From: an uncultured SAR86 cluster bacterium
GTDB taxonomy: Bacteria; Pseudomonadota; Gammaproteobacteria; Magnimaribacterales; D2472
Length of the DNA stretch: 64,000 bases
Direction of reading: 5' to 3'
NCBI GenBank assembly: GCA_943789005.1
Contig: CALSSL010000003.1
Coordinates: 1-64,000 of the forward strand
Positions 59,723 through 64,000 of this stretch are shown piece by piece. The notes beneath the pieces were generated by a model. It did not search any database. It saw only the letters and a program-made list of their open reading frames with translations, and had not been told where the DNA came from. The position numbers were made by a program, and so were the translations under genes. Position 1 is the first letter of the stretch. Each line of letters opens with the position of its first letter.

Positions 59723-60151
59723 ATGGATTTATTTACAAGTGTTTCTTATGAGATTGAATTATGGAACCTTTTTGCAAGTTCAAGAGGAGCAAATGCAACT
59801 ATTTTTCTTGCTACAGTAATAGCTGTTTGGGTTGCTGCAAGATTCAGCAGCGTTATGGTTGATAAAGGTGCAAATACTGTCGCAAAATTAATTGGCACAG
59901 CTTTTGCTATATCTGTATTTTTAATAGGATTAAATCTAGGTGGATTAATCACAGGGACCTATGAAGGACATGCAATGGCTTTAAATGCACTTGATGTTGC
60001 AAATGGTGATATTGATCTTGGAGCTGGTTCACAGGGTTGGCTAGCAGCACAAGCTGAAGGAAATATGATTAGCACATTAGGTGGCTGGATGTTTTATATC
60101 ACAGGTTTATTAATTGCTGTTTTACCACTCTGGTTAAATCCTAGCGATTAA
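59723..60151 (+). CDS. Three-helix membrane protein of unknown function (142 aa)
   Basis: I do not recognise the family. The protein has three membrane segments (about residues 24-42, 56-79 and 114-138) and an N-terminal part with ELWNLFASSRGANAT. It has a polar, Asp/Gly-rich loop between helices 2 and 3 and very few lysines compared with its neighbours. It has its own promoter, the near-perfect Shine-Dalgarno and an intrinsic terminator 18 nt after the stop, so it is monocistronic and probably abundant. Alternatives such as a small channel, a scaffold or an electron-transport accessory protein cannot be distinguished. Confidence 0.75.
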   Translation: MDLFTSVSYEIELWNLFASSRGANATIFLATVIAVWVAARFSSVMVDKGANTVAKLIGTAFAISVFLIGLNLGGLITGTYEGHAMALNALDVANGDIDLGAGSQGWLAAQAEGNMISTLGGWMFYITGLLIAVLPLWLNPSD

Positions 60152-60233: not shown

Positions 60234-60500
60234 ATGAAAAACTTGAATGAAATATTTTTATTACTTAAAAATAAAAATGAAGTAGATGATTTCTTAAAAG
60301 ATCTTTGTACTCCAGCAGAATTAAAAGCTTTAGAAGAGCGCTGGGCTGTTGCACAACTTTTATATGAAGATACTTTATCTTATAGAGAGATTGCAGCTAA
60401 ATTAAAAACTAGCACAACAACTGTAACCAGAGTAGCAAGATTTTTATCAAGTGAGCCGTATCAAGGTTATAAACGAATTCTTAAAAGGATAAATAAATGA
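60234..60500 (+). CDS. TrpR-superfamily regulator (YerC/YecD-like)
   Basis: An 88-residue helical DNA-binding protein. LKDLCTPAELKALEERWAVAQLL followed by LSYREIAAKLKTSTTTVTRVARFL is the YerC/YecD branch of the TrpR superfamily: dimerising helices, then a helix-turn-helix at about residues 54-75. It overlaps hisG by 4 nt, so it is co-translated with the histidine genes. To my knowledge, TrpR-type YerC homologues have been proposed as histidine-biosynthesis regulators in Firmicutes. A repressor sensing histidine is therefore plausible but inferred. Confidence 0.88.
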   Translation: MKNLNEIFLLLKNKNEVDDFLKDLCTPAELKALEERWAVAQLLYEDTLSYREIAAKLKTSTTTVTRVARFLSSEPYQGYKRILKRINK

Positions 60501-61360
60501 AAAATAGATTAACTATTGCTGTTCAAAAAAAAGGTCGTCTGTTTGATCAAAGTATTGATTTGATTAAAAAGTCCGGTATTAATTTCTCAACAAAAGGAGA
60601 TAATTTATTAGCAAAATCAAATAATTTACCCATTGATATTCTTTTTGTAAGAAGTGATGACATACCCTCTCTTGTTTCAAATGGAGATGCTGATTTAGCT
60701 ATAGTCGGTGAAAACGTATTACTAGAAAAATCATTATTTAAAAGAACTTATATTGATAAAGTCCTTTATTTGGGATTTTCAAGATGCAGGCTATCTTTTG
60801 CATGCCCAGAAAATATAAATATTAGATCATTTAAAGGTAAGAAAATTGCTACCTCATATCCAAATACAGTTAAAAAATACTTAAAAGATAAAAATATTAA
60901 TGCCTCTGTTGTTAATATTCATGGGTCAGTTGAACTTACGCCATATATTGGAATGTCTGATTTAATATGTGATCTTGTTTCGTCTGGTGCAACTTTAGAA
61001 GCTAATAATTTAAAAGAAATTGAAACCATCCTAGAATCGCAAGCTATTCTTATAAAAAATAAAAACCTATCAACTGCTAAAACAAAAATTGCTGAAAAAG
61101 TTATTAGTAGAATGCAAGGCGTAGTGAATGCAATTGAGAGTAAGTATGTAATGCTCAATGCTGATTCTTCAAAAGTTCAAGAAATTTGTAAGATATTGCC
61201 AGGATCAGAATCTCCAACGGTTATACCTCTTGAGAATGAGAATAAAGTGGCTATTCATGCTTTATGTCAAGAACCAATATTTTGGGAAACTATGGAAAAA
61301 CTGAAAGCTAAGGGAGCTTCCTCTATTTTAGTTATGCCTGTTGAAAAAGTCTTAAATTAA
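60497..61360 (+). CDS. hisG: ATP phosphoribosyltransferase, long form
   Basis: A 287-residue enzyme for the first step of histidine synthesis, joining ATP and PRPP. LTIAVQKKGRLFDQSIDLIKKSG, LAIVGENVL and the PRPP loop DLICDLVSSGATLEANNLKEI are conserved. The C-terminal domain (about residues 215-287) is the histidine-binding regulatory part of the long HisG type, so HisZ is not needed. It overlaps the TrpR-like gene by 4 nt and is 1 nt ahead of hisD-hisB. Confidence 0.95.
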   Translation: MKNRLTIAVQKKGRLFDQSIDLIKKSGINFSTKGDNLLAKSNNLPIDILFVRSDDIPSLVSNGDADLAIVGENVLLEKSLFKRTYIDKVLYLGFSRCRLSFACPENINIRSFKGKKIATSYPNTVKKYLKDKNINASVVNIHGSVELTPYIGMSDLICDLVSSGATLEANNLKEIETILESQAILIKNKNLSTAKTKIAEKVISRMQGVVNAIESKYVMLNADSSKVQEICKILPGSESPTVIPLENENKVAIHALCQEPIFWETMEKLKAKGASSILVMPVEKVLN

Positions 61361-61361
61361 T

Positions 61362-63236
61362 ATGAAAGAATTAATATTAAATAAAAAATCTAAGATCTTA
61401 GAATTTAGTGAGTCAAAAATTTCATCAAAAGACATCACAACTATTAATAAATTTAAAAAGCTTGTTATCGAGAAAGGTGACAATGGTTTAAGAAATATAT
61501 CTAAAATCTTAAAAGAAAAAGAAATTAAATCCTTTAAAGTCAGTAATTCTGAATTTAAAAAAGCTGAACAATTAGTTGATGATCAATTAAAGAATGCCAT
61601 TCTTACAGCATATTCAAATATTAAAATGTATCATGAAAAACAATTAGATGGCTTGTCAGTTAATAAAGTAGAAACCACAAAAGGTGTTTCCTTATGGTCT
61701 GAGTTTAAGCCTATAGATAGTGTTGGGTTGTATATACCTGGGGGTACTGCCCCACTGTTCAGCTCACTTCTAATGCAAGCAATACCAGCAATTATTGCTG
61801 ATTGTCCAAATATTGTCATTTGCACACCTCCTGATACCAATGGAAAAATAAATCCAACTATATTGTGGGTTGCTGACTTACTAAATATTAAAAATGTATA
61901 CAAAGTTGGAGGTTCTCAAGCTATTTTTGCAATGGCATATGGAACAGAGTCTATTCCAAAATGTTATAAGATATTTGGACCTGGTAATAAATATGTTACA
62001 GAAGCAAAATTACAGGTTAGTAAAGATATCTCAATTGATATGCCAGCTGGGCCAAGTGAAGTATATGTCGTTTCAAACGATATAGAAAAAGCAGACATCA
62101 TAGCGTCTGACTTGCTTTCACAACTTGAGCACAGTATCGACGCCAAAGCAGTTTTAATTTCAAAAAATAAAAAGTTGCTTAAAGATATAAAAACAACTAT
62201 CAGCAATCAAAAAGAATCTTTGAGCAGACAATCTATACTCAACGAAAGTATAAAGAATACATATTTAGTTAAAGCCAAAAATGACAAAGAAATAATAAAT
62301 TTTATTAATGATAATGCGCCTGAGCACTTAATATTAATCGATGATGATTTTGTAAAAATTGCACCATACGTTAACAATGCAGGTTCTGTATTTTGTGGTA
62401 AATATTCACCCGAATCATTTGGAGACTATGCGTCTGGTTCAAATCACACACTTCCAACTGGACAAGCTGCTAAAACATATTCTGGACTATCTGTTAAAGA
62501 CTTTGGTAAGACTATTACCTTCCAAACTGCTACTCCTGAGGGGTTTCTTGCTCTTGCTCCAACAGTCAAGACCCTTGCAGAAGCCGAAAGCTTAGATGCT
62601 CATACAAATGCAGTACAAGTTAGAGAAATTTATGCTATCAATGATTCAGGCTTATTACCTAGAACTTCTTTTATAAAACGAACTACTAAAGAGACTAGTA
62701 TATTTATAAATTTAAATATTGATGGTACTGGTAACTACAATGTGGATACCGGTCTTAAATTTTTTGATCATATGCTTGAGCAATTCGCAAAACATGGTCA
62801 ATTTGATATCACTATAAAATCTTTTGGTGATTTGGAAATTGATCAACATCACACCATAGAAGATGTTGCTATAGCATTGGGTGAGGCATTTAAATCCGCT
62901 CTAGGAGATAGAAAAAATATCGACAGATATTCATCTAATGAATCACTAGTTATGGATGAAACTATTTCGAATGTAAGTATTGATATGGCATCCAGGACGC
63001 TTCTAAAAATGAAAACATCTAAATTAAGAGAATATGTTGGTGATTTTCCAACTGAAATGTTGGAACATTTTTTTATATCTTTTATAAATGCTCTTAATTT
63101 TACTTGCCATATAGAAACTAAAGGAGAAAATAGCCATCACATTGTTGAAGCAACTTTTAAAAGCTTTACAAGGGCACTAAATAAGGCTTTACAAAGAAAT
63201 AATACAAATATTGCATCAACAAAAGGAAGTCTATGA
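61362..63236 (+). CDS. hisD-hisB: HisD-HisB fusion: histidinol dehydrogenase plus imidazoleglycerol-phosphate dehydratase
   Basis: One 624-residue frame. Residues 1 to about 426 are a full histidinol dehydrogenase: Zn ligands Gln254, His257, Asp355 and His414, catalytic Glu321-His322, and FGPGNKYVTEAK. After a linker of about ten residues, residues 437-624 are a full HisB dehydratase domain: TTKETSIFINLNIDGTG, FFDHMLEQ with His470, DQHHTIED with His496-His497, MLEHFF and SHHIVEA. No in-frame ATG, GTG or TTG lies in the linker. The phosphatase domain that precedes the dehydratase in E. coli HisB is absent, and so is hisC, normally between hisD and hisB. The chain would catalyse steps 6 and 9-10 of the pathway. 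Confidence 0.93.
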   Translation: MKELILNKKSKILEFSESKISSKDITTINKFKKLVIEKGDNGLRNISKILKEKEIKSFKVSNSEFKKAEQLVDDQLKNAILTAYSNIKMYHEKQLDGLSVNKVETTKGVSLWSEFKPIDSVGLYIPGGTAPLFSSLLMQAIPAIIADCPNIVICTPPDTNGKINPTILWVADLLNIKNVYKVGGSQAIFAMAYGTESIPKCYKIFGPGNKYVTEAKLQVSKDISIDMPAGPSEVYVVSNDIEKADIIASDLLSQLEHSIDAKAVLISKNKKLLKDIKTTISNQKESLSRQSILNESIKNTYLVKAKNDKEIINFINDNAPEHLILIDDDFVKIAPYVNNAGSVFCGKYSPESFGDYASGSNHTLPTGQAAKTYSGLSVKDFGKTITFQTATPEGFLALAPTVKTLAEAESLDAHTNAVQVREIYAINDSGLLPRTSFIKRTTKETSIFINLNIDGTGNYNVDTGLKFFDHMLEQFAKHGQFDITIKSFGDLEIDQHHTIEDVAIALGEAFKSALGDRKNIDRYSSNESLVMDETISNVSIDMASRTLLKMKTSKLREYVGDFPTEMLEHFFISFINALNFTCHIETKGENSHHIVEATFKSFTRALNKALQRNNTNIASTKGSL

Positions 63237-63808
63237 AAATTGGAATTGTTGATTGCGGAGGTGCAAATCTTAATTCAATCTATTATTCCTTTAAAAGATT
63301 GAATATAGATGCATTTATTTCTAATTCCATAGATGAACTCTCACAAATGGATGCATTGGTACTACCCGGTGTCGGTTCTGCAGGAAAAGTGATGGAAACA
63401 TTATCAAAAAAAAATTTAGCTAGCTTTATTAGGGAAACCAATAAACCACTACTTGGAATTTGTATAGGAATGCAAATTTTATTTGATTATTCTGAAGAAG
63501 ATAATACTGAGTGCTTGGGTTTAATTAAAGGAAATGTAACTAAATTTAATAAAAAAGATGTTATTGCTGTCCCTCAGATGGGTTGGAATAAAGTCGAATG
63601 TAAGTTTGACAATACTCTGAATGGTTACTATTACTTCGCTAATAGTTATTTCAATAAAGACAGTGATTGCACAGTTGGGTATACCTCATATGGTAATCAA
63701 TTCTCATCAATTATAAAAAAAGACAATCTTTTAGGATGTCAATTCCATCCAGAAAAATCTTCTACTGCAGGCGAAATGTTTTTAAAAAATTTTATTAATT
63801 CAATATGA
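63233..63808 (+). CDS. hisH: Imidazole glycerol phosphate synthase, glutaminase subunit
   Basis: A 191-residue class I glutamine amidotransferase supplying ammonia to HisF. It has the nucleophile Cys77 in GICIGMQ and the His172/Glu174 pair in QFHPEKS, with LPGVGSAG forming the oxyanion region. It overlaps hisD-hisB and hisA by 4 nt each, indicating coupled translation. Confidence 0.96.
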   Translation: MKIGIVDCGGANLNSIYYSFKRLNIDAFISNSIDELSQMDALVLPGVGSAGKVMETLSKKNLASFIRETNKPLLGICIGMQILFDYSEEDNTECLGLIKGNVTKFNKKDVIAVPQMGWNKVECKFDNTLNGYYYFANSYFNKDSDCTVGYTSYGNQFSSIIKKDNLLGCQFHPEKSSTAGEMFLKNFINSI

Positions 63809-64000
63809 AAATAATTCCTGCTATTGATATCTTAAATGGTAAATGTGTTAGGTTGCTAAAAGGAGACTACTCCAAGGTTACTGAGTATAATAATGATCCT
63901 TTAACACAGGTCTATCTTTTTAAAAAAGCAGGCTTTAAAACTATACATATAGTTGATTTAAATGCTGCTAAAACTGGTGGCAGTGAAAACCTAGAAATTA
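63805..64000 (+). CDS. hisA: Phosphoribosylformimino-AICAR-P isomerase HisA, N-terminal part
   Basis: The gene runs out of the window after 65 codons. The start IIPAIDILNGKCVRLLKGDY includes catalytic Asp8 of the HisA TIM barrel, and IHIVDLNAAKTG is the second strand block that distinguishes HisA from HisF. Its ATG overlaps the hisH stop (ATGA). hisF and hisI presumably follow. Confidence 0.95.
   Translation, partial: MKIIPAIDILNGKCVRLLKGDYSKVTEYNNDPLTQVYLFKKAGFKTIHIVDLNAAKTGGSENLEI

Follow-up and report, generated by a model that had tools for sequence, protein, structure and literature searches.

In one family of SAR86 (f1), the histidinol dehydrogenase gene hisD is joined in frame to the dehydratase domain of hisB (IGPD), a fusion (hisDB) that is evident in gene structure, conservation, phylogeny, and gene neighbourhoods. 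The window, a stretch of 64,000 nucleotides at the start of contig 3 of an uncultured SAR86 genome (1.27 Mb, 91% complete), holds one copy, which is the sole HisD of its genome and has its closest named records in other SAR86 genomes (94–96% protein identity). It is very probable that hisDB serves steps 6 and 9–10 of histidine synthesis, with HisC and a HAD-IB phosphatase for steps 7 and 8, and that the fusion arose once, in a transferred operon, with a benefit in expression.

ORF analysis of the window found the hisDB frame uninterrupted throughout its 624 codons, with about 10 residues separating a complete HisD from a complete IGPD (Table 1). The HisD model TIGR00069 scored 464.4 bits over residues 34–421 (curated cut-off, 243.8), Pfam placed PF00475 IGPD at residues 463–606 (E 1e-53, 181 bits), and the NCBIfam HisB models began at residue 433–438 and ended at 624. 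The score for the HisB/IGPD model NF002111 lay just above its cut-off (233.6 vs 231 bits) and that for the bifunctional HisNB model NF003937 far below (234.8 vs 443 bits), with alignment only from profile position 166. Neither a HisN phosphatase domain (Pfam and NCBIfam profiles) nor the HAD DxDGT motif was found in hisDB. HisD and IGPD were the only domains detected; HisI and HisE are absent from the chain, hisIE being a separate gene.

Table 1. Coordinates of hisDB, its parts, and the neighbouring histidine genes in the window
Feature	Position	Strand	Basis or remark
yerC, putative TrpR-like regulator that opens the operon	60234..60500	+	TIGR02531, 53.7 bits (cut-off 42.2)
hisG, long form (C-terminal regulatory domain present)	60497..61360	+	TIGR00070 and TIGR03455 over cut-off
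hisDB, HisD-IGPD fusion	61362..63236	+	single ORF, 624 aa, two profile domains
HisD domain, residues 26–421	61437..62624	+	PF00815 Histidinol_dh (Pfam profile search), E 3e-143; E. coli key residues kept
junction, residues 422–432	62625..62657	+	variable; consensus identity and model
IGPD domain of HisB, residues 433–624, without HisN phosphatase	62658..63233	+	NF002111, metal motifs
hisH	63233..63808	+	TIGR01855 over cut-off; 4-base overlap of its start with the end of hisDB
hisA start	63805..64000	+	hisF and hisIE lie past the window end

The operon reads yerC-hisG-hisDB-hisH-hisA-hisF-hisIE and includes neither hisC nor HisN, which, with the missing HAD motif, agrees with the original prediction that hisC and the HisB phosphatase are absent from the cluster. 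A single base separates hisG from hisDB, models for hisA, hisF, and hisIE were over cut-off at L117 5806-7884, and the position of yerC upstream of hisG is kept across f1. The order hisG-hisD-hisC-hisB, which had been taken as usual, is indeed common (E. coli, Bacteroidota), but it is not the sole one, as hisD-hisB neighbours and split loci exist. Upstream of yerC, the window (59723–60151) encodes a putative membrane protein of 142 aa that is conserved in SAR86 (36–48% identity) and has no Pfam or NCBIfam match.

Judged by residues and predicted fold, both halves of the chain look functional. Residues Q254, H257, E321, H322, D355, and H414 of hisDB align with Q259, H262, E326, H327, D360, and H419 of E. 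coli HisD, which are the zinc ligands and the catalytic Glu/His pair. The catalytic and metal residues of hisDB are invariant across f1, as are the IGPD metal-binding motifs HHTIED and HHxxE in the family alignment. An AlphaFold2 monomer model (mean pLDDT, 87.9) contained both folds, with the last HisD helix (residues 412–429) followed by a short loop and the first IGPD strand at residue 435; the best Foldseek matches were the HisD structures 6an0 and 1k75 and, for the C-terminal part, the IGPD structures 6fwh and 8qax. Apart from the N-terminus, the junction is the most variable region of hisDB, mean consensus identity being 43% over residues 422–436 but 71% and 76% within the domains, as one would expect of a linker. 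Such variability would also suit a chain that is cleaved, or translated separately, into two ordinary enzymes in the cell, but the window copy has no in-frame ATG, GTG, or TTG at the junction, the sole such codon up to 60 codons ahead of FFDHM being a GTG within IGPD, and the frame is unbroken in 50 genomes; we regard cleavage or separate translation as very unlikely.

The order-wide search covered 203 genomes, in which the fused frames, counted by hand, totalled 50, all uninterrupted, all from f1, and with 48–100% identity. One sequence by itself could not have ruled out an assembly or sequencing error, but 50 separate genome assemblies carry the same fusion as one open frame over both domains, so that the chance of an error in a single genome is negligible and, as had been claimed, a frameshift at the junction is excluded, as is a chance joining. 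The fusion occurs in genera g1–g5 and g7–g9, while g10 yielded pieces only. Every intact copy in f1 is fused and no f1 genome holds intact separate genes; the other f1 matches are fragments, and those inspected stop at contig edges, including hisDB in G011 and G026, with the G011 piece beginning inside the junction (L023/L024). In the other histidine-positive families of the order, f2 and f3, all intact HisD and HisB are separate, and the two genes lie at different places wherever both loci were read. Separate genes in relatives had been named in the original prediction as evidence against a fusion, and they are present in f2 and f3, but these belong to a different lineage and every intact f1 copy is fused, so they do not refute it. 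Among the matches listed for a 369-genome sample of the class there was no further HisD-HisB fusion, the two near cases (family f147) being adjoining yet separate genes. A contig labelled Flavobacteriales (L046) carries a SAR86 histidine operon at 76% identity and is probably misbinned.

Within f1, hisDB had no match in genus g6 and part of g5. Because these include genomes up to 96% complete, the absences are probably true losses, and g6 and part of g5 are likely histidine auxotrophs within the family. In g1, four genomes also gave no match, at a completeness of just 78–84%.

Phylogenetic trees of HisD, IGPD, and both combined placed the fused genes in one clade (100/100), adjoining L053 (95/86) and L059 (99/99), each a single metagenome contig that may be misbinned. 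The combined HisD and IGPD tree included E. coli, Bacteroidota, and others, and in it L053 joined the fused clade first and L059 next. The HisD of f1 forms one clade (100) apart from that of f2 and f3, which group elsewhere and are about 32–37% identical to the f1 version, and HisG is long in f1 compared to 204–207 aa in other SAR86 families (L127/L129). Together, the separate HisD clade and the long HisG suggest that the f1 operon was probably acquired by transfer, displacing ordinary split genes. Since L059 was no longer beside the fused clade once HisG was added to a concatenated tree of HisG, HisD, and IGPD, HisG may have a history separate from that of the other two.

Both L053 and L059 read hisD-hisNB with hisC absent from between the two, and the flanks of L059 match the f1 operon. 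Because these relatives already lack hisC while keeping hisNB, a loss in two steps is favoured: the precursor would have been a transferred operon yerC-hisG-hisD-hisNB-hisH-hisA-hisF-hisIE, hisC was probably lost first, and a deletion of the HisN domain would then have joined hisD in frame to IGPD in a single event predating the diversification of f1. The earlier suggestion that hisC and the HisB phosphatase had been cut out thus holds in that both are gone, but probably through two losses and not one cut. No HisN remnant was seen at the hisDB junction, where the gap is only about 10 residues. The route is likely rather than proven, because adding HisG weakened the link to L059 and each relative is represented by one metagenome contig. 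The same end could have been reached by loss of the stop codon between an adjoining hisD-hisB pair, as found in Bacillota and gammaproteobacterial family f147, which would need just a small change and for which unfused neighbours are known (L112, L164, L165); yet such pairs have short HisG and fall into a clade of their own (100/99), and the fused genes cluster with long-HisG operons of the hisD-hisNB type, which makes stop-codon loss unlikely. Ancestry from an ordinary gammaproteobacterial hisD-hisB pair was rejected, the f147 pairs belonging to another clade. That IGPD fusions can arise by deletion of HisN is supported by a Bacteroidales metagenome contig (L090 1891-3714, one genome only) in which HisC and IGPD share a single frame with HisN missing, a parallel fusion through a similar event one gene further along.

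Several other unusual histidine genes were observed. Two alphaproteobacterial IGPD proteins (L111 8795-10414 and L113 645-2264; operon order hisG-hisD-XB-hisH-hisA) have, in place of HisN, an N-terminal stretch of about 175 aa that is unrecognised by NCBIfam. Balneolota HisB proteins of 295–298 aa (L093, L096, L103-L105) carry about 105 aa before IGPD that resemble the remains of a degenerate HisN lacking the HAD motif, and a Magasanikbacteria contig (L102 11890-13365) encodes HisA and HisF in one frame of 491 aa.

For step 7, the search for a HisC-like aminotransferase elsewhere in the genome returned only one HisC over cut-off (G000 C1:752695-753753; TIGR01141, 340 vs 276.55 bits), in an aromatic-amino-acid cluster, gyrA-serC-pheA-hisC-tyrA-aroA, the adjoining genes being identified by eye from sequence. 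Such a cluster is where HisC2-type genes are located. A HisC2 homologue from Pseudomonas fluorescens was able to complement E. coli hisC (PMC11535334). In the sister genus g5, hisC closes the hisDB operon in the six genomes read in detail.

The best candidate for the step 8 phosphatase is a HAD-IB protein that probably belongs to the Pseudomonas-type histidinol-phosphatase group (L134, G000 C1:589183-589776); it matched NF052360 HolPasePseu over its full length (E 3e-76, 255.8 bits, a little short of the cut-off of 280) and scored 145.7 bits against the wider model TIGR01490 (cut-off 98.3). In Burkholderia, Pseudomonas, and Marinobacter, genetic evidence shows that histidine synthesis depends on phosphoserine-phosphatase-like proteins, which had first been annotated as phosphoserine phosphatases (PMC5764234). 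In g5, the HAD-IB gene lies on the contig that bears hisDB in all seven genomes with the fusion, divergent from and adjoining yerC in the six genomes read in detail, and all three histidine-negative genomes (93–96% complete) are without both the HAD-IB gene and a true HisC. Evidence against the assignment is that the HAD-IB gene persists in g6, which lacks hisDB, and is missing from G023 (one contig, 92% complete), which carries hisDB. A search for a HisN- or PHP-type enzyme had been suggested, and the genome has none over cut-off: there was no HAD-IIIA HisN outside the operon, and the sole PHP match lies within a frame of 1156 aa that was taken by size as DnaE. A Gph-like HAD at C1:743689 was set aside, its top match being N-acetylmuramic acid 6-phosphate phosphatase or phosphoglycolate phosphatase.

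Inositol-monophosphatase-like enzymes, cf. HisN of Actinobacteria, are a known histidinol-phosphatase class (PMC5516325), and the genome encodes three Inositol_P proteins, among which an orphan (G000 C2:299627-300307) or SuhB might act in step 8. This assignment appears improbable, as their top score, about 103 bits, is well below the 275 bits set as cut-off for HisN, histidine-negative genomes retain all three, and the gene beside the g5 operon is HAD-IB. With HisC over cut-off and HAD-IB as the preferred phosphatase candidate, the aminotransferase and phosphatase that the original prediction expected from elsewhere are both most likely supplied.

Taken as a pathway, the C-terminal IGPD would catalyse step 6, the dehydration of imidazoleglycerol phosphate, HisC from the aromatic cluster step 7, the putative HAD-IB histidinol-phosphate phosphatase step 8, and the N-terminal HisD steps 9–10, from histidinol through histidinal to histidine, so that both activities would work in one chain. 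Because steps 7 and 8 fall between 6 and 9–10, the chain is not expected to hand an intermediate directly from one domain to the other, and the likeliest benefit would be that a streamlined genome expresses the two enzymes compactly and in equal amounts. IGPD is normally a 24-mer and HisD a dimer, and therefore the fusion may assemble into a large particle. A further arrangement, in which an IGPD 24-mer core bears surface HisD dimers with docked HisC and HAD-IB phosphatase, bringing steps 6–10 together, is doubtful.

Fusions of histidine genes are already known as a kind. Like hisDB, the HisNB of E. coli and Bacteroidota has IGPD at its C-terminus and occupies the operon slot before hisH, but at its N-terminus it carries the HisN phosphatase, so that it serves steps 8 and 6, whereas in hisDB HisN is gone and the partner is HisD. 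Yeast HIS4 (HisI-HisE-HisD) likewise holds HisD within a multifunctional chain, though C-terminally and with HisIE as partners, compared to an N-terminal HisD with IGPD in hisDB. The L053 and L059 operons contain the closest relatives of both domains, and L059 shares the order yerC-hisG-hisD-..B-hisH-hisA-hisF-hisIE without hisC, but in both hisD and hisNB are separate and HisN is retained. The same two enzymes occur in f2, f3, and most Gammaproteobacteria, of the same order or class as f1, but from another lineage, with short HisG and with hisB-hisH-hisA-hisF at another locus. The fusions described are HisNB, HisIE, HIS4, and HIS7, those with HisD being only eukaryotic, in HIS4 (PMC1963479, PMC11237513), and Fani et al. 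2007 detected no HIS4-like protein among prokaryotes (PMC1963479). Open-licence papers contained nothing relevant on a HisD-HisB fusion or on SAR86 hisD, an earlier account in a closed journal, or an annotation in a database, being possible, and we found no report of the HisD-HisB pairing or of its combination of the non-consecutive steps 6 and 9–10.

Histidine synthesis is a classical model for the evolution of gene fusions and operons, and a stable natural HisD-HisB fusion of non-consecutive steps tests the idea that fusions serve the passing of intermediates. For SAR86, a very abundant ocean group, the fusion is kept throughout the histidine-making members of the window's family, and the absence of HisNB and of an operon hisC explains how automated annotation might miscall these bacteria as histidine auxotrophs. 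The analysis also names a likely phosphatase and indicates the branches of the family in which the pathway has probably been lost.
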